A stretch of DNA of 11,923 bases from Oscillospiraceae bacterium (lineage in GTDB: Bacteria > Bacillota > Clostridia > Oscillospirales > Oscillospiraceae): contig JAIEIQ010000018.1 of NCBI GenBank assembly GCA_029065305.1, positions 1 through 11,923 on the forward strand, in the 5' to 3' direction. Below the pieces are notes generated by a model. That model was given only the letters and a program-made list of their open reading frames with translations, searched no databases and was not told where the DNA came from. Positions 1 to 11,923 of the stretch are shown one piece after another. Numbering within the stretch: position 1 is the stretch's first letter; the number at the start of each line of letters is the position of its first letter. The position numbers and the translations under genes are program-made.

Positions 1-463
1 TCCCATAGGCGCTTCCGCCGTCATCCACCAGATGCCCGAACCCGCCGGCGCGCACCATCTCGCCGCTCTCCCTGCGCCCCAGGCAGATGGAGCCGGTCCC
101 GGCTATCAGGATAATGCCGTGGCATTCCGGAAATGCGGCGGCCAGGGCGGTTTCGCCGTCTGAGTACGTAAAAACTGGCGCCCGATATCCCCTGGCGGCA
201 AATGCCTCTGTAAGAAGCTGTTTGGCCCGGGGATTGCTGATGCCGGCCGCGCCGATTCCGATGCCGCCGCAGCTCTCGGCCTGGAACCCGGAGGCGTTCA
301 GCCAGCGCAGTATCTCCGCAAGCGTTGCCTGAAACTGCTCCGGGCTCTGGCCGTTCACGTTCAGCGGCCCGGCGGTGTGGCGCGCAATCACATGTCCGTC
401 TCTGTCCGCTGCGCTGATTTTTGTGGCGGTGCCTCCGCCGTCCATACCCAGAAGATATTTCAT
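1..463 (-). CDS. BadF/BadG/BcrA/BcrD-type amino-sugar kinase (GlcNAc/MurNAc kinase class), partial
   Basis: The gene starts at the ATG complementary to 461-463 and runs off the left edge, leaving 154 residues and one extra base. I translated it by hand. A phosphate-1 loop GMDGGGTATK lies at residues 6-15, GIGIGAAGIS at 67-76, a possible catalytic-base region YSDGETAL at 100-107, the phosphate-2 loop IAGTGS at 120-125, and GGFGHLVDDGGSAYG at 140-154. This order is typical of the BadF/BadG/BcrA/BcrD ATPase family in the hexokinase/actin-like fold, which includes N-acetylglucosamine kinases and clostridial MurK, which phosphorylates MurNAc and GlcNAc at C6. No signal peptide is visible, so it should be cytoplasmic. 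A ribosome site reading GGAAGGGAGA on the minus strand precedes the ATG by about nine bases. Beside NagZ-like and AmiE-like genes, an amino-sugar kinase of wall salvage is likely. The exact substrate (GlcNAc, MurNAc or both) cannot be read from the sequence. Confidence 0.88.
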   Translation of the reverse strand, partial: MKYLLGMDGGGTATKISAADRDGHVIARHTAGPLNVNGQSPEQFQATLAEILRWLNASGFQAESCGGIGIGAAGISNPRAKQLLTEAFAARGYRAPVFTYSDGETALAAAFPECHGIILIAGTGSICLGRRESGEMVRAGGFGHLVDDGGSAYG

Positions 464-499
464 AGGATGTGTCTCCCTTCCGATCTTGATGGATACCTT

Positions 500-528
500 A
501 GTATACATGGGCAGACGGAAAAAAGCAA
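500..528 (-). promoter_or_regulatory. Predicted sigma-A promoter of the divergent kinase gene
   Basis: On the minus strand, TTGCTT (complement of 523-528) is followed after 17 bases by TATACT (complement of 500-505). The -10 is close to consensus and the -35 keeps the TTG. It lies 37 bases before the kinase start, leaving room for a short leader and the ribosome site. It is called by eye. Confidence 0.55.
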
Positions 529-534
529 GATGGC

Positions 535-549
535 TGAAATAAAGTTTCA
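535..549. promoter_or_regulatory. Candidate operator TGAAA-N5-TTTCA between divergent promoters
   Basis: TGAAATAAAGTTTCA is a perfect 5-bp inverted repeat with a five-base spacer. Its first 14 bases recur exactly at 4150-4163, at the -10/+1 of the second binding-protein promoter, and a degraded version lies at 1878-1891 in the first. It falls between the -35 boxes of the kinase promoter (6 bases away) and the hydrolase promoter (18 bases away). Its sharing among several transcription units suggests a common DNA-binding regulator. RpiR/MurR-type proteins often recognise GAAA/TTTC half-sites, but naming the regulator is inference. Confidence 0.55.
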
Positions 550-567
550 ATGATATTCCAACTGGTG

Positions 568-597
568 TTGACAACCTTTACTGCCCTTTGCTATACT
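568..597 (+). promoter_or_regulatory. Predicted sigma-A promoter of the serine hydrolase gene
   Basis: A consensus TTGACA at 568-573 is followed after 18 bases by TATACT at 592-597. Transcription would begin near 604, about 30 bases before the ATG. The gene's ribosome site GAGAGGGG lies at 621-628. Confidence 0.75.
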
Positions 598-635
598 GAC
601 AGTTATCCAGATTTGGGAAAGAGAGGGGTTAGAGG

Positions 636-1730
636 ATGAAACCATTTCAGAAATCCATCGAGCTGGTACAGAGCGCGGTAGACGCGGGGCGAATCGCGGG
701 CGCCGCCCTGGCAATCGGGGATCGGGACCGGCTGTTTGTGGAGGAGACATTCGGGTATACGTCCTTTGCCGATCTGACCGGCGGCGCTTCGGCGGTGGAC
801 TGCCATACGCTTTACGATATGGCGTCGGTCAGCAAGATCATGTCCACAACAATGGTCACGCTCCGCTTCCTTGCGGACGGGCTGATGGATTTGGCCGACA
901 TGCTGCCGGTGTACTTTGGCGGGATGGTCCCCGAGGACAAGGCCCAGATCACGCTGTTCCAGCTCCTGACCCACACATCCGGCTTCCCGGCGCACCTTTC
1001 GCTGGAGGAGCATGTGGAGCCCGGCGGCGATATTGCTGATTTTCTGCTGCATGAGCCGCTGGCCTATACGCCGGGAACCCAGGTGGTATACAGCTGCATG
1101 GGCTTTATTCTTCTGGCCAAAGCGCTGGAGCGCATCGGCGGACAGCCGCTGGATACGCTGGCCCGCCGGCTGGTGTTTGAGCCGCTGGGCATGGCCCGCA
1201 CCGGATACCACCGGCTGGATATGCCCATCGACGCGGCAAACACAGCCTTTACGGAGCGGGATCACAAAACCGGGCAGTGGCTTGCTGGCAGGGTGCATGA
1301 CGAGAACGCCAGATTTCAGAACGGTGTGTCCGGCAACGCGGGCGTGTTTTCCGATATCAGGGACTGCGTAAGATTCGCGCGGATGCTGGCGGGGTATGGA
1401 ACACTGGACAGTGTGGAGCTGATTCCGAGAAGGATTTTCGACCAGGCGATCCGGAATCATACGCCGGGCATGGAGGAAAACCGGGGGCTGGGATTCCACC
1501 TGGCTAACGGACACTTCAGCTATTCGGGGCTGTTTTTTGACCAGAGGGCCTTCGGCCACACCGGCTTCACCGGGCCCCACATGCTGGTATCGCCGGACAC
1601 CGGGCTGTATGTGGTGCTCCTCAACAACCGTGTGCACCCGGAACGGGAGCGGGACAGCGGAAATCTGCGTCTGCGCCGGCTGCTGAACACACAGGCGGCG
1701 ATTGAATATGAACAAATCCGGATAAAGTGA
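636..1730 (+). CDS. Cytoplasmic serine hydrolase, class C beta-lactamase/AmiE-like family
   Basis: This 364-residue protein belongs to the Beta-lactamase (PF00144) serine hydrolase family. The nucleophile motif SVSK is at residues 64-67, the second motif reads YSC at 152-154 within VVYSCMGFILLAKALE, and HTG at 308-310 is the equivalent of KTG. VHDENA near 220-225 and VSGNAGVFS at 231-239 resemble the VHD(E/G)NA and VSGHAGLFS segments of AmiE/YbbE-type proteins. There is no signal peptide or membrane segment, so it is predicted to be cytoplasmic. Family members include penicillin-binding proteins, esterases, D-aminopeptidases and the Bacillus N-acetylmuramoyl-L-alanine amidase AmiE. Beside a NagZ-like enzyme and an amino-sugar kinase, amidase action on imported muropeptides is the favoured but unproven role. 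The second-motif Cys, where Asn or Asp is usual, is a point of interest. The ATG at 636 has a good ribosome site seven bases upstream. The gene forms its own unit between promoter 568-597 and terminator 1734-1789. Confidence 0.85.
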   Translation: MKPFQKSIELVQSAVDAGRIAGAALAIGDRDRLFVEETFGYTSFADLTGGASAVDCHTLYDMASVSKIMSTTMVTLRFLADGLMDLADMLPVYFGGMVPEDKAQITLFQLLTHTSGFPAHLSLEEHVEPGGDIADFLLHEPLAYTPGTQVVYSCMGFILLAKALERIGGQPLDTLARRLVFEPLGMARTGYHRLDMPIDAANTAFTERDHKTGQWLAGRVHDENARFQNGVSGNAGVFSDIRDCVRFARMLAGYGTLDSVELIPRRIFDQAIRNHTPGMEENRGLGFHLANGHFSYSGLFFDQRAFGHTGFTGPHMLVSPDTGLYVVLLNNRVHPERERDSGNLRLRRLLNTQAAIEYEQIRIK

Positions 1731-1733
1731 AGG

Positions 1734-1789
1734 AAAACTCCCTTCGCGGCTGGGCGGCGGTACGGCGTCCTTCTGCGGGGGAGTTTTTT
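1734..1789 (+). terminator. Rho-independent terminator after the serine hydrolase gene
   Basis: AAAACTCCC at 1734-1742 is complementary to GGGAGTTTT at 1779-1787, and the T run continues to 1789. The loop is long, about 36 bases, and GC-rich, so internal folding is probable. It starts three bases after the stop codon. The right arm lies inside the block (from 1767) that is duplicated upstream of the second binding-protein gene. There the equivalent stretch (4053-4062) keeps a T run but lacks a left arm. Confidence 0.7.
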
Positions 1790-1803
1790 CTCGGCTTTGT
1801 CTC

Positions 1804-1834
1804 TCTTTCATAAAAACCTGTGATTTCAGAAAGA
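1804..1834. promoter_or_regulatory. Upstream dyad TCTTTC-N19-GAAAGA, copy 1
   Basis: The inverted repeat arms TCTTTC (1804-1809) and GAAAGA (1829-1834) are separated by 19 bases and end 15 bases before the -35. Spacing of the arms and distance to the -35 are identical in copy 2, although the bases between the arms have diverged. TTTCAGAAA (1824-1832), itself a short palindrome, overlaps the right arm. The position suggests an activator site or upstream control element; the protein is unknown. Confidence 0.45.
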
Positions 1835-1849
1835 CAAGGATATTTACTA

Positions 1850-1878
1850 TTGACAAAATTCACGAAAGATCATATAAT
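1850..1878 (+). promoter_or_regulatory. Perfect sigma-A promoter of the first binding-protein gene
   Basis: TTGACA at 1850-1855, 17 bases, then TATAAT at 1873-1878: both boxes and the spacing are exact consensus. Transcription should start near 1885, giving a leader of about 190 bases. A degraded copy of the TGAAA-N5-TTTC palindrome overlaps the -10 and start site (1878-1891). Confidence 0.9.
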
Positions 1879-1891
1879 GAAACAAAGTTCC
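1878..1891. promoter_or_regulatory. Degenerate copy of the TGAAA-N5-TTTC candidate operator
   Basis: TGAAACAAAGTTCC aligns with the perfect palindrome at 535-549 and with 4150-4163, but its right arm reads TTCC instead of TTTC. It occupies the same place relative to the -10 as in copy 2. If it is an operator, it should bind more weakly, so the two binding-protein genes may differ in repression. Confidence 0.35.
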
Positions 1892-1944
1892 GCGCAGTGT
1901 CCTGTTTTGGAAAAAAGCGCAAATCCATTCAGCGTTGTATCCCC

Positions 1945-1981
1945 ATTCCGGAGGCGCTTGACGTTCAGGCGCTTTCGGGAT
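1945..1981 (+). promoter_or_regulatory. Long RNA hairpin in the 5' leader of the first binding-protein gene
   Basis: Positions 1945-1961 pair without a break with 1965-1981, giving a 17-bp stem closed by the loop CGT (1962-1964). Four of the pairs are G-U, so the fold is good in RNA but imperfect as a DNA palindrome, which favours an RNA element over an operator. No T run follows, so it is not a normal terminator. It sits in the roughly 115 bases present only in copy 1, about 60 bases after the predicted transcript start and 95 before the ATG. AAAGCGC at 1914-1920 is complementary to GCGCTTT at 1969-1975, so an alternative fold is possible. The rest of the 1731-2076 intergenic stretch holds the terminator, dyad, promoter and a second ribosome-site-like AAGGAGG at 2002-2008. 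I recognise no known riboswitch class. Confidence 0.6.
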
Positions 1982-2076
1982 TCGCAAGCGATCACTGTAA
2001 AAAGGAGGAAGAGGACTGGAGAGAAACAATCACTGACGGCGACTTATTTCTGAAACGATTATGAGGAGGAAAGAGT

Positions 2077-3957
2077 ATGAAGAAAAGAAATCGTTGGCTG
2101 GCTTTGATACTTGCCGGAGTGATGCTGCTGGCGACGGCCTGCGGCGCGAAGCCGGGCAATTCTGGCAATGGCGGCGGCGATGACGTTGTGACCGAGGGGC
2201 CCCACGGCATCAAGTACGCGCAGGATCAAACGCTGCATCTGGTATACTCCACGGAGGCGGAAACCCTGCACCCCTATTCCGGAAGCAACACCGCGGGCAC
2301 TTGGCAGGCCATCTCCAATCTGTGCGAGGGCCTTACCAGCGTGGACCAGTACGGCAACTTTGTCCCCGGCCTGGCGGAGAGCCACGAGGTCAGTGACGAC
2401 GGTTTGGTGTACACCTACCATATCCGCAAGGGCCTCCACTGGGTGGACTGGGAAGGCAATGAGAAGGACGCGCTGACGGCGCAGGACTTCGTGACTGCTG
2501 CCCGCTACATCTGCGATCCGGACAACGCCTCCGGCGCCGCGTCCTACTATCAGGACATCGTCGCGGGAGCCACCGCCCTGCTGGCGGGGGAGACCGAGGA
2601 TATGGAGACCCTGGGTGTGAAGGCGCTGGACGAGAACACCCTTGAGATCACCCTGGAGAAGCCGGTGCCCTACTTCTACGGCTACGGCGGACATATCATC
2701 CCCGTGCCCACCGCCCTCTTTGAAGAGTTGGGCGAGAGCTACGGCATGGATCATGAGTCCATGTACTTCATCGGGCCCTACCGTCTAGTGGAGTTTGAGC
2801 CCCAGATGTCCAGAGCCTACGAGAAGAACAACAGCTACTGGGATGCGGGCAACGTCCATATCCAGAGAGTGGAGATGACCTATAACGCCGAGGCGGATAC
2901 GCTGGCTCCGGAGCTGTTCAAGCGGGGCGAGGTGGACGAGGCGACCATCGGCGCCAACATCGTGACCGAGTGGATGACCGCTGATGACACCAAGGATATC
3001 ACCCTTCCGCCTCAGCCGGATCCCACCTATACTTATTACTATGGCTTCTGCTATGTGCCCGCTTTCGACGCGGAGTATAATCCGGAGGCTTGGGTAAAGG
3101 CTATCGATAACGAGAACTTCCGCCAGTCCCTGTACTGGGGTCTGGACCGTGTGAAGGCCAGAATGGCGACCATGCCCTACAACACGGAGAACTTCTTGGT
3201 CACCACCATCACCCCGGTGCAGTGGTGCCCCATTGACGGAACCGACTACACGGAGCTGGATCCCATTGCGGAGATTACCAACAGGGACAACTTCTCCTTT
3301 GACGAGGCCAAGGCCCTGGAGTACAAGGCGAAGGCCGTGGAGGAGCTGACTGCTGAGGGCGTGGAGTTCCCCATCAAGGTTTATATGCCGTATAACCCTG
3401 CCAGCTCCGGCTGGGATCAGGAGGTGCAGGTCGTCAAGCAGCAGCTGGAGGACCTCCTCGGATCCGACTATGTGGAGATCACCATTGAGGCGGGCCCCTC
3501 CACCGGCTTCCTGGCGGATGTCCGCCGTACCGGCAAGTACGGCTTCATGAAGCTGAACAACGGCGCCTCCGATTATGATCCCCAGGCGTGGACTGTGGCC
3601 TTCTCCGAGGGCAACAGCTGGACCTTCCTTGACGCGGCTGTTGGTCCCAACGTGCAGGCCCTGGCCAAGGAGTACCTGGAGCTGCTGAACAAGGCGAAGT
3701 CGATCACCTCTCTGTCCGTAGAGCGGTATCAGGCGTTTGCCGAGGCCGAGAAGTTCCTTCTGGAGCACGCGCTGGTGATCCCGTTCACCGCCGACTCCAC
3801 CGGGTATGTCGCGGCGAAGGTGAATCCCTTCGAGAAGATGCACAACAGTGACGGCGGCTGGAAGTACGCGAGAGTCCTGGCCGAGCCCATGACCATCGAG
3901 CAGTATAATGCCTGCTACGAGGATTGGCTGGTGGCCCGCGAGGAGTCCAGAAAATAA
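2077..3957 (+). CDS. oppA: Oligopeptide ABC transporter substrate-binding lipoprotein, copy 1
   Basis: This 626-residue family 5 extracellular solute-binding protein (SBP_bac_5) most resembles AmiA/OppA of Gram-positive peptide importers. The N-terminus MKKRNRW, a hydrophobic stretch and ATAC give a lipoprotein signal with Cys22 as the lipidated residue; Ala rather than Leu at -3 is less common. A short Gly-rich linker (about 25-36) precedes the fold. Typical family segments include TLHPY (63-67), YTYHIRKGLHWVDW (112-125), LTAQDFVTAARY (133-144), GPYRLVEFEP (233-242) and the interlobe segment FRQSLYWGLDR. The C-terminus ends in EESRK after an EQYNACYEDWL segment resembling the AmiA tail. The ATG at 2077 has AGGAGG at 2064-2069. 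It is paralogous to the next gene and has its own consensus promoter and 3' hairpin. Its ligand is probably a peptide; a muropeptide is suggested only by neighbours. Confidence 0.9.
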   Translation: MKKRNRWLALILAGVMLLATACGAKPGNSGNGGGDDVVTEGPHGIKYAQDQTLHLVYSTEAETLHPYSGSNTAGTWQAISNLCEGLTSVDQYGNFVPGLAESHEVSDDGLVYTYHIRKGLHWVDWEGNEKDALTAQDFVTAARYICDPDNASGAASYYQDIVAGATALLAGETEDMETLGVKALDENTLEITLEKPVPYFYGYGGHIIPVPTALFEELGESYGMDHESMYFIGPYRLVEFEPQMSRAYEKNNSYWDAGNVHIQRVEMTYNAEADTLAPELFKRGEVDEATIGANIVTEWMTADDTKDITLPPQPDPTYTYYYGFCYVPAFDAEYNPEAWVKAIDNENFRQSLYWGLDRVKARMATMPYNTENFLVTTITPVQWCPIDGTDYTELDPIAEITNRDNFSFDEAKALEYKAKAVEELTAEGVEFPIKVYMPYNPASSGWDQEVQVVKQQLEDLLGSDYVEITIEAGPSTGFLADVRRTGKYGFMKLNNGASDYDPQAWTVAFSEGNSWTFLDAAVGPNVQALAKEYLELLNKAKSITSLSVERYQAFAEAEKFLLEHALVIPFTADSTGYVAAKVNPFEKMHNSDGGWKYARVLAEPMTIEQYNACYEDWLVAREESRK

Positions 3958-3978
3958 CAAAAGAGAGAAAATGCCATA

Positions 3979-4012
3979 GGCCGGCTATCGAGCTTTCGAT
4001 AGCCGGCCCTTT
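3979..4012 (+). terminator. Hairpin after the first binding-protein gene, probable weak terminator
   Basis: GGCCGGCTATCGA (3979-3991) pairs perfectly with TCGATAGCCGGCC (3996-4008), giving a 13-bp stem with the loop GCTT. Only CTTTGC follows, so the U tract is poor. The stem begins 21 bases after the stop codon. It may terminate partly or protect the 3' end of the mRNA. The homologous hairpin after copy 2 differs by compensatory changes. Confidence 0.7.
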
Positions 4013-4075
4013 GCATAATTGCCGCCGGGGGGGATAGTGTCCTTCTGTCAGAGGAGATTTTTACATTTTTGTCTC

Positions 4076-4106
4076 TCTTTCATAAAAACCGACGATTTTA
4101 GAAAGA
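4076..4106. promoter_or_regulatory. Upstream dyad TCTTTC-N19-GAAAGA, copy 2
   Basis: TCTTTC at 4076-4081 and GAAAGA at 4101-4106 have the same 19-base spacing and the same 15-base distance to the -35 as in copy 1. Here the arms extend inward: TAAAA (4083-4087) faces TTTTA (4096-4100), making a longer dyad with one unpaired base. This supports it as a functional site. Confidence 0.45.
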
Positions 4107-4121
4107 TTTTGATATTCACTA

Positions 4122-4150
4122 TTGACAAAATATTGAGAAGAATATATAAT
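4122..4150 (+). promoter_or_regulatory. Perfect sigma-A promoter of the second binding-protein gene and transporter operon
   Basis: TTGACA at 4122-4127, 17 bases, then TATAAT at 4145-4150, exact consensus as in copy 1. The predicted start near 4157 gives a leader of about 77 bases. No other convincing promoter is seen between 6166 and 6307, so this one probably also serves oppBCDF and the genes after them. Confidence 0.9.
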
Positions 4151-4164
4151 GAAATAAAGTTTCC
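4150..4164. promoter_or_regulatory. Candidate operator GAAA-N5-TTTC over the transcription start
   Basis: TGAAATAAAGTTTC matches 535-548 base for base; the next base is C instead of A, so the palindrome here is GAAA-N5-TTTC. It overlaps the last base of the -10 and covers the predicted +1, a classic repressor position. Confidence 0.5.
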
Positions 4165-4233
4165 TGTTGACTGGTTTTTTTGGAAAAAAGTTCAATTCAC
4201 CCGACACCAAAACATTTATAAGGAGGAAGGAGC

Positions 4234-6165
4234 ATGAAAAAGAGAAATCGTTGGATGGCGTTTATGCTCGCCGGATTGATGCTGCTGGCGGTAGCCTGCG
4301 GCACAAAACCGGACAGCACGGACGGCACAGGCGGGAGTCCGAATCCCAGCAATGATTCGGATGCGAACGCGGGCGCTCAGAGCCCGGCCGGCAGCACTCC
4401 ACAGGACAATCCCTACGGCTTGGTTTATGCGGAGGAGCAGACGCTGAACACGGTGTACAACGTGGAGGCGTCCACCCTGCATCCCTACACGGGCGACGGC
4501 TCTGCGGGCACCTGGGTGGCCATTTCCAATCTGACAGAGGGCCTCCAGACCGTGGATCAGTATGGCAACTTTATTCCGGGCTTGGCGGAGAGCATTGAGA
4601 TCAGCGAGGACGAGCTGGTCTATACCTACCATCTGCGCAAGGGCTTGCAGTGGGTGGACTGGGAAGGCAATGAGATGTGCGAGCTGACGGCGCAGGATTT
4701 TGTGACCGCGGCCCAGTTTATCTGTGACCCCGCGAACGCTGCCAGCGCCGCGTCCTACTATGACGGGATTATCTCCGGCGCAACGGCGGTTTTGTCCGGC
4801 GAGGCCGATATGAGCGCGCTGGAGTTTAAAGCCCTGGACGAGTACACCGTCGAGATTACCCTGGAGCGCCAGGTCCCGTATTTTGACGGCTACGGCGGAC
4901 ACTTCCTGCCGATGTGCACCTCTCTGTATGAGGAGCTCGGGGCCTCCTATGGCATGGACAATGAATCCCTGTATTATATCGGGCCCTACCGCCTGACCTC
5001 CTTCGATCCCCAGAGCCAGCGGGTTTATGAGAAGAACTACAGCTACTGGGACGCGGACAACGTACATATTGAAAAGGTGATTGCCACCTACAACGCGGAG
5101 GCCGCTACGCTGGCGCCGGAGCTGTTCAGCCGCGGCGAGATCGACCAGGCCAAGATTGGGACTGATATCCTGTCCGAGCGGATGGCAAATCCCGATACGA
5201 AGAATATTACGATCCCCGGCCAGCCGGACGGCACCTACATGTATTACTACCTGTTCAACTATGTGCCCAACTTCGGCGACGACGCGGCGAAGGCCAAGTG
5301 GATCACCGTGGTTGACAACGAGAACTTCCGCCAGTCCCTGTACTGGGGCCTGGACCGCGTGAAGGCGAAGATGGCCCAGGAGCCCTACAATCCGGAGCTG
5401 TTCCTGAGCAATACGATTACCCCGGTTTCCTGGTGCTCCGTGGACGGCGTAGACTTCACCGAGATCGAGCCTCTGGCAACGATTACCCACAGAGAGAATT
5501 GGGGCTTTGACGCCGGTAAGGCGCTGGAGTACCGGGACAAGGCCGTGGAGGAGCTGACCGCGCAGGGGATCTCCTTCCCCATTGAGATTTACCTGCCCTA
5601 CGACCCCTCCACCCAGAACCTGGATATGGAGACGCAGGTTGTCAAGCAGCAGCTGGAGGAGCTTCTGGGGACGGACTACATCACGATTACCATTGAAACC
5701 GGTCCCTCCACGGGCTTCCTGGACGCGGTCCGCCGCGCGGGCAATTACGGTATGCTCAAGAGCCGCAACGGCGCCGCGGAGTATGACCCGGAGAAGTGGG
5801 TCATTGCCTTTGACCGGAACAACACCTGGTGCTTCCTCGATAAGGCGGCGGGCCCGAACGTGAAGGCTCTAGCCGACGAGTATCTGTCCATGCTGGACGC
5901 GGCCAAGGCTATCACCACCAACTCTATGGAGCGCTATCAGGCGTTTGCGGAGGCGGAGGCGTTTTTGATTGACCACGCCCTGGTGATCCCCGTCTGCGCC
6001 GACTCCACCGGGTACATGGTGACCAAGCTGAATCCCCTGGAGGGGATGCACAACACAGACGGGAGCTTCAAGTATTATCACCTTCTTGCGGAGCCGCTGA
6101 CTGTGGAGCAGTATAATCAGATCTATGCCGATTGGCTGGCAGCCCGCGAGGAATCCAGAAAATAA
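4234..6165 (+). CDS. oppA: Oligopeptide ABC transporter substrate-binding lipoprotein, copy 2
   Basis: This 643-residue paralogue of the preceding gene is also of the SBP_bac_5 AmiA/OppA type. The lipoprotein signal has the same MKKRNRW start and Cys22 (AVAC), followed by a longer Ser/Gly/Pro/Asn-rich linker (about 23-60) that accounts for most of the extra length. Family segments match copy 1: TLHPY, YTYHLRKGLQWVDW, LTAQDFVTAAQF, GPYRLTSFDP, FRQSLYWGLDR, and the end in EESRK. The ATG at 4234 lies five bases after AAGGAGGAAG at 4220-4229. Many differences from copy 1 fall throughout both lobes, so a different ligand range is plausible. This copy heads the transporter operon, separated from oppB only by a hairpin and about 140 bases, so it is probably the main partner of the importer. 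Confidence 0.9.
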   Translation: MKKRNRWMAFMLAGLMLLAVACGTKPDSTDGTGGSPNPSNDSDANAGAQSPAGSTPQDNPYGLVYAEEQTLNTVYNVEASTLHPYTGDGSAGTWVAISNLTEGLQTVDQYGNFIPGLAESIEISEDELVYTYHLRKGLQWVDWEGNEMCELTAQDFVTAAQFICDPANAASAASYYDGIISGATAVLSGEADMSALEFKALDEYTVEITLERQVPYFDGYGGHFLPMCTSLYEELGASYGMDNESLYYIGPYRLTSFDPQSQRVYEKNYSYWDADNVHIEKVIATYNAEAATLAPELFSRGEIDQAKIGTDILSERMANPDTKNITIPGQPDGTYMYYYLFNYVPNFGDDAAKAKWITVVDNENFRQSLYWGLDRVKAKMAQEPYNPELFLSNTITPVSWCSVDGVDFTEIEPLATITHRENWGFDAGKALEYRDKAVEELTAQGISFPIEIYLPYDPSTQNLDMETQVVKQQLEELLGTDYITITIETGPSTGFLDAVRRAGNYGMLKSRNGAAEYDPEKWVIAFDRNNTWCFLDKAAGPNVKALADEYLSMLDAAKAITTNSMERYQAFAEAEAFLIDHALVIPVCADSTGYMVTKLNPLEGMHNTDGSFKYYHLLAEPLTVEQYNQIYADWLAAREESRK

Positions 6166-6186
6166 CTAAGACGGGGAAAATGCCAT

Positions 6187-6218
6187 GGGCTGGCTGTCGG
6201 ATCTCCGATGGTCAGCCC
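6187..6218 (+). promoter_or_regulatory. Intercistronic hairpin between binding-protein gene 2 and oppB
   Basis: GGGCTGGCTGTCGG (6187-6200) pairs with CCGATGGTCAGCCC (6205-6218) through 14 pairs, three of them G-U, around the loop ATCT. Only TTTG follows, so read-through into oppB is expected. Such a hairpin commonly lets a binding protein be made in excess over its permease, by partial termination or by protecting the upstream mRNA. It is homologous to the hairpin at 3979-4008. Confidence 0.65.
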
Positions 6219-6307
6219 TTTGAGCGTATACCCGCAGGCGGAGAAGGGAGGCCAAGGTCCTGTCCGGGGTGCTTGGTTACTTTCAGAAAAGGAGAATGGA
6301 AGATCAT

Positions 6308-7249
6308 ATGCTGAAATACTGTCTGAAGCGAATCATGCGGGCCTGTATCAGTCTTGTCATCGTGATAGCCGTTGTGTTCTGCCTGCTGCGGCTGATGCCC
6401 ATCGACAGCTACTTCCCGAACCTTGACGACATGACGGAGATCCAGCTCTACAACGCCAAGGAGAAGCTGGGGCTCAACGACCCGGTGCCGGTCCAGCTGG
6501 GGAATTTCTATCAGCAGCTGCTGCGCGGGGATCTGGGGCTCTCCAACAAGTACCGGGTTGACTATCCGATCACAAAGATTCTGGCCAAAAAAGCGCCCGT
6601 TTCCATCAAGTTTGGACTGATGGCAATGGGCATCAGCCTGCCGCTGGGCCTGCTCTTGGGCGTGCTGATGGCCAGAAACCGGAACGGCATTTTGGATCGT
6701 GTGGGAACCGGATACGTTGTTCTCATGCAGGCGGTGCCTGCGGCTGTGTACTATCTGATGGTGCAGATCTACGGCAGCGACTGGACGGGACTGAATATCC
6801 TATATAAAACGGGGGTCCCATCCAGTATTATCCTTCCCGTTGTATCGCTGGCTCTGCCCTCCATCGCCTGGTACGCCATGTGGCTCAGGCGGTACATGGT
6901 GGACGAGGAGAACAAGGACTATATCCGCATGGCCAGAGCCAAGGGCGTGCCGCAGCGGGCCATCGGCTTTAACCACGTGTTCCGCAACGCAATTGTTCCC
7001 TTGATTCACGGGATACCGTCCTCCCTGCTGCTGACAATCTCCGGCTCTATTTACGTGGAGTCCCTCTATTCCATACCGGGAATGGGCGGCCTGCTGGTGG
7101 AGGTCATCAAGATGCAGGACAACTCCATGGTGCAGGCGCTGGTTATTGTGTACGCCGCCCTGGGCATCATCGGCCTGCTGATGGGGGATATCCTGATGGC
7201 GGTTGTGGATCCGCGGATCAGTCTGACAAAGAAGGAGGGTGCTCGCTGA
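6308..7249 (+). CDS. oppB: Oligopeptide ABC transporter permease OppB
   Basis: This 313-residue inner-membrane subunit belongs to the DppB/OppB binding-protein-dependent permease family. It begins MLKYCLKRIMRA followed by a membrane helix (about 12-29), a long external loop with DLGLSNKYR, then further helices near 100-121, 133-154, 172-193, 233-250 and 277-300. The EAA coupling loop, DYIRMARAKGVPQR through RNAIVP, is at 204-231, and YSIPGMGG at 254-261 and the end DPRISL are typical. I chose the ATG at 6308 because family members begin with this MLKY sequence. In-frame starts at 6269 (GTG) and 6296 (ATG) exist, but GGAG at 6291-6294 is too close for 6296. For 6308 the ribosome site is unusual: GGAG at 13 bases or GGAAG at 5. 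It overlaps oppC by one base. Confidence 0.9.
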   Translation: MLKYCLKRIMRACISLVIVIAVVFCLLRLMPIDSYFPNLDDMTEIQLYNAKEKLGLNDPVPVQLGNFYQQLLRGDLGLSNKYRVDYPITKILAKKAPVSIKFGLMAMGISLPLGLLLGVLMARNRNGILDRVGTGYVVLMQAVPAAVYYLMVQIYGSDWTGLNILYKTGVPSSIILPVVSLALPSIAWYAMWLRRYMVDEENKDYIRMARAKGVPQRAIGFNHVFRNAIVPLIHGIPSSLLLTISGSIYVESLYSIPGMGGLLVEVIKMQDNSMVQALVIVYAALGIIGLLMGDILMAVVDPRISLTKKEGAR

Positions 7250-8301
7250 TGTCTAAATTTTCGATGAACGATCATATCTCCAAGAAGCTGGAGAAGAGCC
7301 TGACGGAACAGGATCTGGCGGATGCGGGCCGTCTGCCGGATGTGCTGACGGAGGAGCAGATTGCGGCCCTCCCCGCGTCTCTGTTTTCGCGGAGGGCGTA
7401 TAGCGAGGAGGAGGCGGAGCGGACCGGATATTCCGATTACTCCTACTGGCGGAGCACCATCCGCGCGTTCTTTAAGAACAAGGCGGCGGTGTGTATGCTG
7501 CTGCTCGCCATGTCGCTGGTGCTGTTCTCGGTGATCCAGCCCTACCTGCCGGGACAGTATGACCCCAATTTCATCAATAACGACCCGGAGACCGGTATGC
7601 AGATCATCAACCAGCAGCCGGGCGGGCAGTTCATTCTGGGAACCAACGCCATAGGCCAGGACTTCTGGGCGCGGCTTTGGGCCGGAACCAGGACCTCCAT
7701 GTTCCTGGGCCTGACGGTGGCCGCTATCCAGACCGTGATCGGCATCGCTCTGGGAATGATTTGGGGCTATCTGCGCAGTGTGGATGTGTTCTTTACGGAG
7801 CTCTACAACGTTGTCACCAACATTCCGTCCACGATTATCCTGATTCTGGCCTCCTATGTCCTCAAGCCCGGCATCTGGACAATGGTGTTCGCCATGTGCG
7901 TCACCGGCTGGCTGGGCGTGGCCCAGTATATCCGTACCCAGGTGATGATTATCCGGGACCGGGACTTCAATATGGCCTCCCGCTGTCTAGGAACACCGCT
8001 GGACCGGATCATCATGAAAAACCTGCTGCCCCATATCGTGTCGGTTATCATGCTGCGCATGGCCCTGGCGATTCCCTCGGCCATCGGCAGTGAGGTATTT
8101 ATGACCTATATCGGGCTGGGGCTCCCCATTGAGACGCCGTCCCTGGGCAATCTGGTCAACGCGGGCCGGGGCATGCTGATGTCGCCCTCCCTGCGCTACC
8201 AGCTGATCTATCCGGCTATCGTCCTGTCCGTGATCACGGTGTGCTTCTATATGGTTGGCAACGCCTTCGGCGACGCGGCTGATCCGAAGAATCATCTGTA
8301 G
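7249..8301 (+). CDS. oppC: Oligopeptide ABC transporter permease OppC (AmiD-like)
   Basis: This 350-residue second permease has a charged cytoplasmic N-terminal extension of about 65 residues. Next come the OppC N-terminal segment YWRSTIRAFFKNK (66-78) and a first helix (about 80-96). Then there is an external loop with LGTNAIGQDFWARLW, and further helices near 150-173, 193-220 and beyond. The EAA loop FNMASRCLGTPLDRIIMKNLLP lies at 240-261. LYNVVTNIP, YIGLGLP and the end DAADPKNHL recall streptococcal AmiD. It partners OppB to form the membrane pore. The start overlaps the oppB stop as TGATG at 7247-7251, consistent with translational coupling, and AAGGAGGG lies shortly upstream inside oppB. 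Confidence 0.92.
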   Translation: MSKFSMNDHISKKLEKSLTEQDLADAGRLPDVLTEEQIAALPASLFSRRAYSEEEAERTGYSDYSYWRSTIRAFFKNKAAVCMLLLAMSLVLFSVIQPYLPGQYDPNFINNDPETGMQIINQQPGGQFILGTNAIGQDFWARLWAGTRTSMFLGLTVAAIQTVIGIALGMIWGYLRSVDVFFTELYNVVTNIPSTIILILASYVLKPGIWTMVFAMCVTGWLGVAQYIRTQVMIIRDRDFNMASRCLGTPLDRIIMKNLLPHIVSVIMLRMALAIPSAIGSEVFMTYIGLGLPIETPSLGNLVNAGRGMLMSPSLRYQLIYPAIVLSVITVCFYMVGNAFGDAADPKNHL

Positions 8302-8312
8302 GAGGGAGTGTC

Positions 8313-9368
8313 ATGGAGAAAAAGGCTATTTTATCCATACAGGATCTGAACATCAAATTCAACCTCCGCGGCCAGCTCCTTCACGCAATCCGCGGCGTCT
8401 CCCTGGATCTTCTGGACGGTGAATGCCTCGCCATTGTGGGCGAGTCCGGCTCCGGCAAGTCGGTGCTGGTCAAAAGCTGCATGGGCCTGCTGGATAAGAA
8501 CGGCTTCATCGATTCCGGCTCCATTGTCTATAACGGGATGGAGCTCACCGCGAACAAGAAGGAGAAGGAGTGGGAGAAGATCCGGGGCGGACAGATCGCC
8601 ATGGTCATGCAGGACCCGATGACCAGCCTGAACCCGCTGAAGTCCATCGGCTGGCAGATCGGAGAGTCTCTGAAATACCACCAGGATCTGACGGGAGAAG
8701 CGGCGAAGAACAAGGTCATGGAGATGCTGACGGACGTGGGAATCGACGATCCCAAGAGGCGTTACAGCCAGTACCCCCACGAGTTTTCCGGCGGTATGCG
8801 CCAGAGAGTGGCTATCGCCATCGCCCTGGCCTGCAATCCGCGGATCCTGGTGTGCGACGAGCCGACGACCGCCCTTGATGTGACGATACAGGCGCAGATC
8901 CTGGATCTGGTCCGGGGCTTGCAGAAGAAGTACCATCTGACAACAATCTATATTACCCACGATCTGGGCGTGGTGGCGAACGTGGCCGACCGGGTCGCGG
9001 TCATGTATGCCGGCGATATCGTGGAGATCGGCGGCTGCAAGGAGATCTTCTTTGATCCGAAGCATCCGTATACCTGGGCGCTCCTGTCCTCCCTGCCGCA
9101 GATCGCCGCAGCGGGGACGAAGCTGTATTCCATCCACGGGACGCCGCCGAACCTGTTCATGCCCGTGCGGGGCGACGCGTTCGCGCCGCGGAACCCGTAT
9201 GCGCTGGATATCGATTTCCTCCACCGGCCGCCGTATTTTGAGGTCAGCCCGACCCACAAGGCAAGAACATGGCTTCTGGACCCCCGTGCGCCGAAGATCG
9301 ATCCGCCGGAGGCCATTCGGGAAATCAAAAATCTGAAAGCGTTCGGAGGTGACTGGGGTGAAGAATGA
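8313..9368 (+). CDS. oppD: Oligopeptide ABC transporter ATPase OppD (AmiE-ATPase type)
   Basis: This 351-residue ATPase of the peptide/nickel importer family has Walker A GESGSGKS (43-50), Q-loop Gln100 in VMQDPMTSLNP, the ABC signature FSGGMRQR (158-165), Walker B ILVCDE (178-183) and switch His216 in YITHDLGV. The C-terminal oligopeptide domain contains HPYTWALLSSLP and GTPPNLF. Where many OppD/DppD proteins carry four cysteines for an iron-sulfur cluster, this one has Asp288, Asn294, Asp301 and Thr319, as I recall for streptococcal and bacillar OppD/AmiE ATPases. It powers peptide import with OppF. It follows oppC by 11 bases with an AGGAGGGAG ribosome site, and its last 11 bases overlap oppF. 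Confidence 0.93.
   Translation: MEKKAILSIQDLNIKFNLRGQLLHAIRGVSLDLLDGECLAIVGESGSGKSVLVKSCMGLLDKNGFIDSGSIVYNGMELTANKKEKEWEKIRGGQIAMVMQDPMTSLNPLKSIGWQIGESLKYHQDLTGEAAKNKVMEMLTDVGIDDPKRRYSQYPHEFSGGMRQRVAIAIALACNPRILVCDEPTTALDVTIQAQILDLVRGLQKKYHLTTIYITHDLGVVANVADRVAVMYAGDIVEIGGCKEIFFDPKHPYTWALLSSLPQIAAAGTKLYSIHGTPPNLFMPVRGDAFAPRNPYALDIDFLHRPPYFEVSPTHKARTWLLDPRAPKIDPPEAIREIKNLKAFGGDWGEE
9345..9352 (+). promoter_or_regulatory. Ribosome site that fixes the oppF start at GTG 9358
   Basis: GGAGGTGA, a strong anti-SD match, lies inside the oppD 3' end and ends five bases before the GTG at 9358. The earlier in-frame GTG at 9349 overlaps this site and cannot use it. Confidence 0.7.
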
Positions 9369-10293
9369 TAAAAAAGAGGTCCTTGTCCGTGTAAAAGACA
9401 TGCATGTGACCTTCGGGCGCGGCAAAAAGACCTTTGAGGCCGTCCGCGGCGTCAACTTCGATATCTACAAGGGCGAGACCTTCGGCCTTGTGGGGGAGTC
9501 CGGCTCGGGGAAAACCACCATTGGCCGCGCCATCATCCGTCTGTATCCGATTCAGGGCGAGGTGATCTATCAGGGAGAGCGCATCAGCGGAAAGATCTCC
9601 AGAGAGCTGGACAAGAGGGTGATTCAGCAGATCCAGATGATCTTCCAGGATCCGATGGCCTCCTTGAATGAGCGGGCCAAGGTCAGCTATATTGTCTCGG
9701 AGGGCCTGCTGAATATCCACAAGAACCTCTCCCGGCAGGAGATCAAGGATCGGGTGGACAAGGTGCTTCTGGAGGTGGGACTGCTCCCGGAGTTCTCCAG
9801 CCGCTTTCCCCATGAGTTCTCCGGAGGACAGAGACAGCGGATCGGCATCGCCCGGGCGCTGATTATGGAGCCGTCGTTCATTATCGCCGACGAGCCCATC
9901 TCCGCGCTGGACGTGTCCATCCGGGCCCAGGTATTGAATCTGCTGTCGGATTTGCAGAGGACGAGAGGGCTTACGTACCTCTTCATCGCCCACGATCTCT
10001 CGGTGATGCGGTTTATCTGTGACAGGATTGCCGTCATTCAGAAGGGGCGCATCGTGGAGCTGGCGGAGACGGAGAAGCTGTTTGCCCATCCGACGCACCC
10101 CTATACCAGAGCCCTCCTTATGGCGATTCCCATGCCGAATCCGGATGTGGAGAAGGATAAGGTACTGCGGATTTACGACGCAGAAAAGTATGCCAGCTGG
10201 GAGCGCGGCAGCGTCTGGGCGGAGATTGAGGACGGCCACTGGCTGCTGGCGGACCAGGAGACGATTGAGCACTACAGGCAGAAGCTGCGCTAG
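9358..10293 (+). CDS. oppF: Oligopeptide ABC transporter ATPase OppF (AmiF type)
   Basis: The second ATPase has 311 residues from GTG 9358. Walker A GESGSGKT is at 46-53, Q-loop Gln97 in MIFQDPMASLN, the signature FSGGQRQR at 154-161, Walker B FIIADE at 174-179 and His212 in LFIAHDLSV. After HPYTRALLMAIP the C-terminus is short and without cysteines, reading VLRIYDAEKY and IEDGHWLLADQ. This resembles streptococcal AmiF rather than the cysteine-rich DppF tail. It dimerises with OppD to drive the permease. The start overlaps oppD by 11 bases, consistent with coupled translation, and the stop lies 26 bases before the NagZ-like gene. Confidence 0.92.
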   Translation: MKNDKKEVLVRVKDMHVTFGRGKKTFEAVRGVNFDIYKGETFGLVGESGSGKTTIGRAIIRLYPIQGEVIYQGERISGKISRELDKRVIQQIQMIFQDPMASLNERAKVSYIVSEGLLNIHKNLSRQEIKDRVDKVLLEVGLLPEFSSRFPHEFSGGQRQRIGIARALIMEPSFIIADEPISALDVSIRAQVLNLLSDLQRTRGLTYLFIAHDLSVMRFICDRIAVIQKGRIVELAETEKLFAHPTHPYTRALLMAIPMPNPDVEKDKVLRIYDAEKYASWERGSVWAEIEDGHWLLADQETIEHYRQKLR

Positions 10294-10319
10294 AGCCGGC
10301 TTCTGAGCGGGAGGTCAAC

Positions 10320-11882
10320 ATGGCGGAAAAATGGACGCGGGAACAGCTCCGGCTGGAGATCGGGCAGCACTTCATGGCGGGCCTGGACAGCACGGAACTG
10401 ACGCCGGAGATGGAGCGGTTCCTGGCGGAGTACCGGATAGGGAATATCATTCTCTTCAAGCACAATGTGGAGAGCAGCGCACAGTTGCGGCGCCTCTGCG
10501 CCGATGTTCAGGAGTGCGTCCGGAAGCACACAGGACACGGCGCGCTGATCGCTATCGATCAGGAGGGCGGGCCTGTCACCCGCCTCAGCGGCGACAGCGT
10601 AAACGTCCCCGGCGCAATGGCTGTTGCCGCCGCCGGCGGGCCGGAGCTGGCCCGGCGGGCCGGCCGGCTGACCGGCAGGCAGCTGCGCTCGCTGGGCGTG
10701 AATTTTGACTTTGCCCCCGATATGGACGTAAACTGCAATCCGGACAATCCGGCCATTGGCGTGAGGAGCTACGGGGATACCCCGGAGCAGGTCATCGCCT
10801 ATGGTACCGAGATGCTCCGGGGGCTTCAGGAGAGCCGGGTGCTGGCCTGCGCCAAGCATTTTCCGGGATACGGCGATTTGAATTTGGATCCCCATCTGAG
10901 CCTTCCCAAGGTAACGAAGCCGCTGGAGCAGCTGGAGAAGGTGGAGCTTCTTCCGTTTGCGCGGGCTGTGGAGGCCGAAGTGGCCAGCATCATGACGGCC
11001 CATGTCATTTTCCCGGCCCTGGAGCCGGAGGAGATACCGGCCACCATGTCTCGCCGGATCATTACCGGGATGCTGCGGGAGAGGATGGGCTATGAGGGCC
11101 TGGTGGTGACGGACTGCATGGAGATGGGGGCCATCGCCTCCGGCTATGGGACAGTCCAGGGCGCGGTGCGCGCGCTCCAGGCCGGCGCGGATATTGTCCT
11201 GGTTTCCCATACCGCCCAGACGGCGATGGAGGCGGTCGAGGCGGCGGAAGAGGCGTTGAGGAATGGGAGTATTTCCATAGAGGAGCTCCAAAAGAGCACG
11301 GAGCGAATCCTGCGCTTCAAGAGGGCGTATCAGGTGGGCGAGACAGCACCGGAGTACGATAACGCCGAGGATATGCAAGAGACAGAGCGGATTCTGCGGC
11401 GCTCGATTGCCGGATACCGCCTCCCGGAGGGGAGAATCCCGGATCTCGGCCCCAACCCGCTCTTTGCCTCGGTGCAGTCCTACCGCGCCACGCTCGCGAA
11501 TAACGAGGAGCGCCGGACGCTGAGCTTTGCCGGGTACATGGCGGAGGGCTATGGCGGGGACAGCTATCTTCTCCCCCGGGAGCCCTCCGAGAAGGAGATT
11601 GCGGAGCTGTTCGCGGCGGCGGAGGGGCACAGTGCCCTTGTGATCGGAACCTACAACGGCCACCTGTGGAAGGAACAGCGGGAAATGCTGGGACGGCTGG
11701 ATCAGGTAAAGGTGCCTGTGCTGGTGGCGGCGTTTGGCCTGCCCTATGATTTGCAGGACACGCCGGCGGATATTCCGGGCCTTGCGGCCTGGGAGTACAC
11801 CCCTCGGAGTATGGAGGCGGTTCTTGCGATACTGCGGGGAGAGGAGCGCCCGGTGGGGAGGATGCCGATCCATCTGGCGTAG
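10320..11882 (+). CDS. nagZ: Glycoside hydrolase family 3, NagZ-like beta-N-acetylhexosaminidase
   Basis: This 520-residue GH3 enzyme has a first TIM-barrel domain with IGNIILFKHNV (40-50), IDQEGGPVTRL (79-89), FAPDMDVNCNPDNPAIG (131-147), the sugar-binding Lys179-His180 in KHFPGYGDL, and the Asp190/His192 dyad in DPH, the general acid/base signature of NagZ-type enzymes. Nucleophile Asp265 lies in VVTDCMEMGAI. A second domain (about 360-520) ends in GRMPIHLA, as in two-domain Firmicute enzymes, though it is shorter than Bacillus NagZ. NagZ removes GlcNAc from muropeptides or GlcNAc-MurNAc. There is no signal peptide, so it should act in the cytoplasm, unlike secreted Bacillus NagZ. In the loop usually written PGHGDT, this protein has Tyr184 and Leu187. 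The ATG at 10320 has GGGAGG at 10309-10314. The short 26-base gap suggests cotranscription with oppBCDF. Confidence 0.9.
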   Translation: MAEKWTREQLRLEIGQHFMAGLDSTELTPEMERFLAEYRIGNIILFKHNVESSAQLRRLCADVQECVRKHTGHGALIAIDQEGGPVTRLSGDSVNVPGAMAVAAAGGPELARRAGRLTGRQLRSLGVNFDFAPDMDVNCNPDNPAIGVRSYGDTPEQVIAYGTEMLRGLQESRVLACAKHFPGYGDLNLDPHLSLPKVTKPLEQLEKVELLPFARAVEAEVASIMTAHVIFPALEPEEIPATMSRRIITGMLRERMGYEGLVVTDCMEMGAIASGYGTVQGAVRALQAGADIVLVSHTAQTAMEAVEAAEEALRNGSISIEELQKSTERILRFKRAYQVGETAPEYDNAEDMQETERILRRSIAGYRLPEGRIPDLGPNPLFASVQSYRATLANNEERRTLSFAGYMAEGYGGDSYLLPREPSEKEIAELFAAAEGHSALVIGTYNGHLWKEQREMLGRLDQVKVPVLVAAFGLPYDLQDTPADIPGLAAWEYTPRSMEAVLAILRGEERPVGRMPIHLA

Positions 11883-11894
11883 AGGAGGAGGACC

Positions 11895-11923
11895 ATGAGA
11901 GTCATATTGGGCGTGGAGCGCCT
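11895..11923 (+). CDS. Start of a further operon gene, possibly DUF1343/NamZ, partial
   Basis: An ATG at 11895, with AGGAGGAGGA at 11883-11892 and 12 bases after the NagZ-like stop, opens a frame that stays open to the window edge and reads MRVILGVERL. Ten residues cannot establish a family. DUF1343 proteins (exo-beta-N-acetylmuramidase NamZ, GH171) often begin with a similar hydrophobic (V/L)GxxRL segment, and in Bacillus namZ lies next to nagZ, so this is the leading guess. The existence of a gene here is more certain than its identity. Confidence 0.6.

Follow-up and report, generated by a model that had tools for sequence, protein, structure and literature searches.

How do fragments of the cell wall enter a Gram-positive bacterium that appears to keep the enzymes for cutting them inside the cell? 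The question is raised by a stretch of 11,923 nucleotides from an Oscillospiraceae bacterium (assembly GCA_029065305.1, contig JAIEIQ010000018.1), referred to here as the window, which encodes a BadF-type kinase, an AmiE-like serine hydrolase, two peptide-binding lipoproteins, a complete oppBCDF transporter and a NagZ of family GH3. This list had been drawn up in a sequence-only reading of the same DNA, and all of its members were recovered in our analysis, the kinase as a partial gene. The window is an entire contig (C90) of a draft genome (G000) of 1.88 Mb that is 70% complete; its flanks were therefore read from relatives, and the close relatives compared were G002 (contig L007) and G019 (contig L008). 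We consider with high confidence that these genes form a locus for peptidoglycan salvage. At a probability of about 65%, we read it as the part of a cytoplasmic salvage pathway that covers import and the first cleavages, in which the Opp transporter would bring in fragments most likely still carrying N-acetylmuramic acid (MurNAc).

In the scheme that we infer for the enzyme activities, the imported ligand and the co-regulation, an Ali/Ami-type Opp with two dedicated lipoprotein receptors would import wall fragments, most likely with MurNAc attached. The stem peptide would be removed in the cytoplasm by the AmiE-like hydrolase, N-acetylglucosamine (GlcNAc) and MurNAc would be released by NagZ and NamZ, the free amino sugars would be phosphorylated by the BadF/MurK kinase, and MurNAc-6-phosphate would be converted to GlcNAc-6-phosphate by MurQ, with an RpiR/MurR-like protein as the probable regulator. 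The peptide half would be degraded by LdcA, DppA, an M20 peptidase and an epimerase-like enzyme, all of which are encoded in the corresponding region of G019. The transporter itself would be kin of the murein-peptide Opp systems found in loci of the type epimerase-oppABCDF-LdcA, re-specialised by the loss of a Trp and an Asp in both receptors. What the computations show directly are the gene families and their order, the enzymes' want of a hydrophobic N-terminus, the altered clamp residues, and the failure to find AmpG or PTS_EIIB in the assemblies of G000 and G002.

The cutting enzymes, the kinase and the flanking genes

The first enzyme of this scheme, an AmiE/PBP4B-like serine hydrolase and putative MurNAc-L-Ala amidase (636..1730, forward strand; PF00144), carries the motifs SVSK, YSC and HTG, which place it in the SxxK/Tyr/HTG family, and its residues S64, K67, Y152 and H308 are invariant across 16 aligned sequences. 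Its best NCBIfam model is PBP4B, at 119 bits and under the cut-off of 385. NagZ, a two-domain GH3 beta-N-acetylglucosaminidase by type (10320..11882, forward strand), scores 271 bits with PF00933 and 208.2 bits with the NCBIfam beta-N-acetylhexosaminidase model (cut-off 207). It can be aligned to B. subtilis NagZ/YbbD (3bmx) across the catalytic domain with retention of the D..H (Asp/His) dyad and the nucleophile Asp, these being the roles that we take the residues to have, and the KHFPGHG motif of NagZ reads KHFPGYG in the window and in G002. Its best solved relative is the GH3 beta-N-acetylglucosaminidase 6k5j, presumably an enzyme of Paenibacillus origin with a role in chitin use. The BadF/MurK-like amino-sugar kinase lies on the reverse strand at the left end of the window (2..463), where the contig end leaves only its N-terminal 154 codons, and PF01869 was matched on the open reading frame at 2-574. 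The full-length badF of G002 (L007 17951-18916) has the MurNAc/GlcNAc kinase 8zo3 as its best solved relative (E-value 2.3e-45). To judge from this relation and from hydropathy, the window would thus bring together a BadF-type kinase for MurNAc and GlcNAc and a NagZ of cytoplasmic type.

When hydropathy was computed over the first 40 residues, the two receptors alone showed a strong segment (2.98 and 2.65); the products of amiE, nagZ, badF, namZ and murQ reach 0.44-1.65. As a control we used 29 GH3 relatives from the order, leaving out the window's own: those that align over both domains carry no export segment (8/8, at most 1.87), and 20 of the remaining 21 are extended at the N-terminus and contain a segment there of 2.24-3.28. 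The earlier claim that the hydrolase and NagZ lack signal peptides is borne out, as judged by hydropathy and the GH3 control and not by a dedicated predictor. Since these enzymes are apparently intracellular, wall fragments are likely to enter before being cut.

G002 is 93-100% identical to the window outside the receptors and shows what would follow it, its gene order being badF, divergent from amiE-oppA-oppBCDF-nagZ-namZ-murQ-GNAT-SGNH, with one receptor instead of two. The namZ product matches PF07075/PF20732 and MurQ matches TIGR00274 at 406 bits (cut-off 302); an RpiR/SIS regulator gene lies on the opposite strand about 1.6 kb past murQ, and further out are genes for esterase, PP2C-like, transglutaminase-like and dipeptide-epimerase-like proteins. 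In the genome of the window, amiE and nagZ are on C90 and murQ and rpiR on another contig, C253, which starts within murQ and continues with GNAT, SGNH, rpiR and esterase genes at 96-98% identity to G002. The order is that of G002; murQ and rpiR are therefore present in the window's own genome, and namZ would lie in the assembly gap. The sequence-only reading had named namZ, murQ and an RpiR/MurR regulator as neighbours to look for, and it was right in this: namZ and murQ follow nagZ and rpiR is near in G002, and murQ and rpiR are found in the window's own genome.

The corresponding region of G019 contains genes for LdcA (S66), DppA (M55), a transglutaminase-like protein, an M20 peptidase, an epimerase-like enzyme (254 bits with the NCBIfam L-Ala-D/L-Glu epimerase model, under the cut-off of 500), Amidase_2, RpiR and MurQ, and pieces of NamZ. 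Here (L008 1900-3900 and 16280-17450) amiE abuts a nagZ that has lost part of its N-terminus and changes frame, pieces of namZ are found at two places, and opp is missing between them, which reflects either decay or misassembly. In both G002 and G019 genes of the LdcA and epimerase-like kind are in the same region, yet they do not adjoin opp. The transglutaminase-like protein of this region, 454-461 residues long (L007 877-2262 in G002; L008 5903-7267 in G019), showed no hydrophobic N-terminus by hydropathy in the G002 copy and is perhaps a peptidase for wall peptides.

An AmpG model matched none of eight genomes and PTS_EIIB, of the phosphotransferase system (PTS), matched one of the eight (G019, away from the locus), with no match in G000, G002 or the locus itself; these results come from incomplete assemblies, and the importer search in them was limited to AmpG and PTS_EIIB, without sugar-type ATP-binding cassette (ABC) importers or further families. 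They agree with the earlier proposal that the place of the PTS is taken here by an Ami-type importer.

Receptors and transcription units of the importer

The two receptor genes, both on the forward strand and both matching PF00496, are oppA1 (2077..3957), with a lipobox read from the sequence, and oppA2 (4234..6165), which is 65% identical to it. The nearest solved structures by sequence are AliB, AliC, AliD and AmiA (oppA1 against AliB, E-value 1.7e-57; with a five-receptor profile, 1.2e-89), so the earlier label of an Ami-type importer fits well. In AliB (W500/D503) and AmiA (W504/D507), the Asp is described as forming a salt bridge with the amino end of the bound peptide and the Trp three residues earlier as packing against that end (PMC11192437), and a docking and dynamics study of OppA assigns a like action to Trp416 and Asp419 (PMC6305025). 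Both clamp residues are retained in 14 of 17 aligned receptors, including all of the nearest Opp relatives, and neither is retained in the two receptors of the window or in the one of G002. Where relatives read NWGAD, the window receptors read NNGAS and RNGAA, the WxxD motif having become NGAS in oppA1 and NGAA in oppA2. In the receptor tree, the window pair and the G002 receptor form one group on a long branch (1.05 changes per site), placed somewhere within the set of 15 receptors from which those of two loci discussed below (L099 and L101) are excluded.

When L-Ala is bound to MurNAc its N-terminus is blocked, and the loss of the clamp fits MurNAc-capped ligands of this kind. We would read the transporter as an Opp of murein-peptide descent that now serves ligands with a blocked N-terminus, and its carriage of MurNAc-bearing fragments as the best reading of these sequences. 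More tentatively, at somewhat under even odds, it may be an ABC importer dedicated to intact muropeptides with their sugars still attached, a Gram-positive functional counterpart of AmpG that arose from a murein-peptide Opp by dropping the clamp in both receptors and was set upstream of cytoplasmic NagZ, NamZ and MurQ. An AlphaFold2 model of oppA1 made from five sequences (mean pLDDT, the predicted local distance difference test score, of 40) was too poor for use.

The single receptor of G002 (L007 14503-16383) is identical to oppA1 at residues 1-350 and nearly identical to oppA2 beyond (compared with window 2077-6165), a mosaic that would come either from recombination of tandem copies or from assembly collapse.

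The remaining transporter genes follow on the forward strand: the permeases oppB (6308..7249, from an ATG at 6308; PF00528 and PF19300 on 6311-7249) and oppC (7249..8301; PF00528, PF12911), and the ATPases oppD (8313..9368) and oppF (9349..10293), each with PF00005 and PF08352. From oppB to nagZ the spacings are -1, 11, -20 and 26 bases. Promoter-like sites with 11-12 of 12 matches were found only before amiE (568-597, in the 172-base intergenic region at 464..635 that separates it from the divergent badF), before oppA1 (1850-1878) and before oppA2 (4122-4150); the other nine sites in the scan match at 9 of 12, and shuffled sequence averages 4.6 sites. We therefore read the forward genes as three probable transcription units, amiE, oppA1 and oppA2-oppBCDF-nagZ. 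This agrees with the few co-regulated units of the sequence-only reading as far as promoter sites and the tight spacing from oppB to nagZ go, the co-regulation itself being a prediction.

Some further features of these units were observed. The sites before the two oppA genes are perfect TTGACA-17-TATAAT sequences in similar surroundings, and the promoter was for this reason apparently part of the oppA duplication. A perfect hairpin, CCGGCTATCGAGCTTTCGATAGCCGG, lies 3' of oppA1 (window 3981-4006) and may be a terminator or attenuator separating receptor output. The hexamer GTATAC, considered as a common operator, occurs six times in the window against 0.83 expected, but the copies are mostly intragenic and the candidate was dropped.

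Recurrence of the gene set and competing explanations

Three surveys were made of related loci, in which Pfam was run on a selection of the neighbouring genes and the remaining ones were named through tblastn to those. For the hydrolase we searched 60 nearby genomes including the window's own, at an E-value threshold of 1e-30, and also scanned named genomes, which yielded 23 loci. With own relatives counted, tblastn placed namZ in 7, badF in 3 and murQ in 2 of these 23, anmK in two (L050, L059) and window-type Opp genes in L041, L043 and L045, so that several distant relatives of the hydrolase adjoin namZ, murQ, badF or anmK. NagZ-like matches in L056 (8 kb off) and L061 (0.8 kb off, 33%) were not taken as support. 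In L043 and L045, both from Lachnospiraceae, amiE (70% and 68%) is divergent from opp, with the permeases and ATPases that are present 57-69% identical to those of the window, and both genomes have rpiR, murQ, nagZ and badF (47-75%) on a separate contig. These are two of the five Lachnospiraceae genomes examined; in the other three, the stretches around murQ are only 3-13 kb long and showed rpiR (one) or badF (two) and no nagZ.

MurQ was found in all eight chosen hydrolase-bearing genomes, seven above cut-off; the copy in the window's genome is truncated at a contig end. A sample of 391 genomes of the class had it in 57 (51 above cut-off), and 58 non-own murQ loci were read, corresponding to 59 of 62 matches; three weak partial matches on G497, G559 and G678 were left out, as was the transporter of L103. 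A NagZ match of at least 38% lies near murQ in 6 of the 58. L096, L102 and L110 have importers of the SBP_bac_1/8 type, the L102 receptor scoring barely above cut-off. These surveys suggest that salvage sets of cytoplasmic type recur and that the importer is their variable part. In L099 and L102, genes for MupG-type 6-phospho-N-acetylmuramidases (PF19200/PF05913) were also seen in clusters with NamZ, NagZ, badF and AnmK-like genes, an unusual mixture of phosphorylated and unphosphorylated MurNAc routes.

The third survey covered 10 loci that hold the closest relatives of the Opp from the genus and the order (Pfam run for three genes). An epimerase-like gene and LdcA adjoin opp in five of the 10 (L170-L173 and L179), one of which also has DppA, and namZ is near in one further locus, L174; the epimerase-like stretch of L179 contains a stop codon. 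The combination of an epimerase-like gene with oppABCDF and LdcA is seen repeatedly within the order and recalls the B. subtilis dpp-ykf operon.

This kinship with murein-peptide transporters raises the most serious alternative, that the Opp, like the Dpp of B. subtilis, is restricted to free murein peptides. Sugars or muropeptides would then enter through an unlinked importer, and the genes would lie together since a single regulator governs the salvage of both the sugar and the peptide half of peptidoglycan. We consider this rather unlikely. In its favour, DppBCDE of B. subtilis is described as binding murein tripeptide (PMC10924461), the nearest Opp relatives that often adjoin the epimerase-like gene and LdcA keep the free-amine clamp, peptide-degrading genes occur in the G019 region, and ABC importers of the sugar type occur in some further salvage clusters. 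In addition, a locus of the same genus (G013; L010 4249-16806) combines a relative of the hydrolase, at 37% identity, with genes for an M20 peptidase and an epimerase-like enzyme and with a more distant Opp set, and showed no nagZ, namZ, murQ or badF within the 17.5 kb available. However, the clamp is lost in exactly the receptors of the window type, and a cytoplasmic AmiE-like enzyme and NagZ would need glycopeptides inside the cell, for which the AmpG and PTS_EIIB searches, made in incomplete assemblies and confined to these two families, offered little other route.

The reading that this Opp carries fragments with MurNAc attached is supported by the flanking genes, by the location of the enzymes and by the loss of the clamp, and several points weigh against it. 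The clamp is kept where an Opp adjoins murQ, nagZ and badF in L099 and L101, two loci from one genus of another family, each also with rpiR, which are the only two of the 58 non-own murQ loci with a full opp set nearby (their amiE matches are short fragments and were not taken as genes); in L096 (G545) a sugar-type ABC importer is followed by a distant Opp set that starts some 9 kb away from murQ. The clamp is also kept in the amiE-linked Opp of the two Lachnospiraceae, L043 and L045. Either clamp loss is no general mark of salvage loci, or the Opp of these four loci take free peptides. Given that the G002 receptor combines parts of oppA1 and oppA2, the clamp cannot have been lost independently more than once or twice. 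A slip of one residue in the loop would bring D or E next to the old clamp position, and the window receptors possibly have a displaced acidic anchor. Relatives of the hydrolase are found in 4 of the 60 nearby genomes including the window's own, one of them the G013 relative, and are patchy in the genus; namZ was not seen in the window's own assembly at its 70% completeness; and in G019 no opp was found at the salvage place, a clamp-keeping Opp and a PTS_EIIB domain being located elsewhere. Of the conserved gene order that the sequence-only reading looked for, the gene set does recur (badF, murQ, rpiR and nagZ on one contig in two of five Lachnospiraceae genomes, both with amiE and a related opp elsewhere) and the grouping is patchy within the genus. 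Its import-first interpretation stands in outline, with the receptors of L099, L101, L043 and L045 counting against it, and the import of intact GlcNAc-MurNAc-peptides would be the part that we infer.

That the locus instead serves chitin or another GlcNAc glycan, or ordinary peptides, so that the link to the wall would be one of family resemblance only, is very improbable. The relation of NagZ to 6k5j speaks for chitin, but genes for MurQ, NamZ and an RpiR regulator lie beside this set, and the best solved relative of the kinase is a MurNAc/GlcNAc kinase. MurQ and NamZ are, to our knowledge, known only from MurNAc chemistry, and their presence makes chitin use unlikely. Ordinary peptides are suggested by the nearest receptors, AliB and AmiA, which are described as binding them (PMC11192437). 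Drift in a decaying or freshly recombining duplicated pair, in place of adaptation to a ligand, would agree with the mosaic receptor of G002, the interrupted nagZ and namZ of G019 with opp missing at its place and the long branch to the window receptors, but it is hardly probable in view of two full-length receptor frames with a lipobox and perfect consensus promoters, a good alignment over the whole length and the alteration of the same two positions in both copies.

If the Opp does carry MurNAc-peptides, a transporter could be named for the uptake of wall fragments in Gram-positive gut bacteria that have neither AmpG nor a MurNAc PTS, and the loss of Trp and Asp would give a two-residue receptor signature telling some such importers from importers of ordinary or murein peptides in genomes. 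Muropeptide uptake by gut Clostridia would also affect how much of these immune-active molecules gets to the host.

Comparison with known systems

In the literature, where coverage of subscription papers was partial, we found no description of an Ali-type Opp linked with AmiE, NagZ, NamZ and MurQ, of its kinship with murein-peptide Opp or of altered receptors of this kind. Several known systems share parts of the arrangement. Reith et al. reportedly described in 2011 the recycling of wall sugars by MurK and NagZ in C. acetobutylicum, with NagZ and an Opp transporter in the kinase cluster. The likeness to the window, which is one by description and not by sequence, is in the kinase of MurNAc/GlcNAc type, and the C. 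acetobutylicum kinase is described as acting on both sugars (PMC5790795). The pneumococcal Ami/Ali receptors are the nearest solved structures, but both clamp positions differ in the receptors of the window.

AmpG is a single membrane permease. In E. coli it imports the glycopeptide first, and a cytoplasmic amidase and other enzymes then cut it (PMC2954226, PMC5061867). The pathway proposed for the window would be import-first in the same way, and the AmpG model matched none of the eight genomes searched.

We know of no AmiE, NagZ, NamZ or kinase that is part of dpp-ykf. This B. subtilis system has an ABC peptide importer adjoining genes for an LD-carboxypeptidase and an L-Ala-D-Glu epimerase for murein peptides (PMC2954226, PMC10924461). 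It resembles the nearest Opp relatives of the window; dpp-ykf takes free murein peptides, whereas the window receptors are without the free-amine clamp.

The closest parallel in enzymes is the murQ-murR-murP-amiE-nagZ-ybbC locus of B. subtilis, in which we take ybbC to be namZ: as here, it has an AmiE-like hydrolase, NagZ, NamZ, MurQ and a regulator of RpiR/MurR type, all of which are found together in G002. In B. subtilis, AmiE and NagZ work extracellularly, and MurNAc enters through MurP, a PTS transporter (PMC5061867). In the locus described here, hydropathy shows no export signals on the enzymes; there is an additional BadF kinase, and the place of the PTS is occupied by an Opp transporter.

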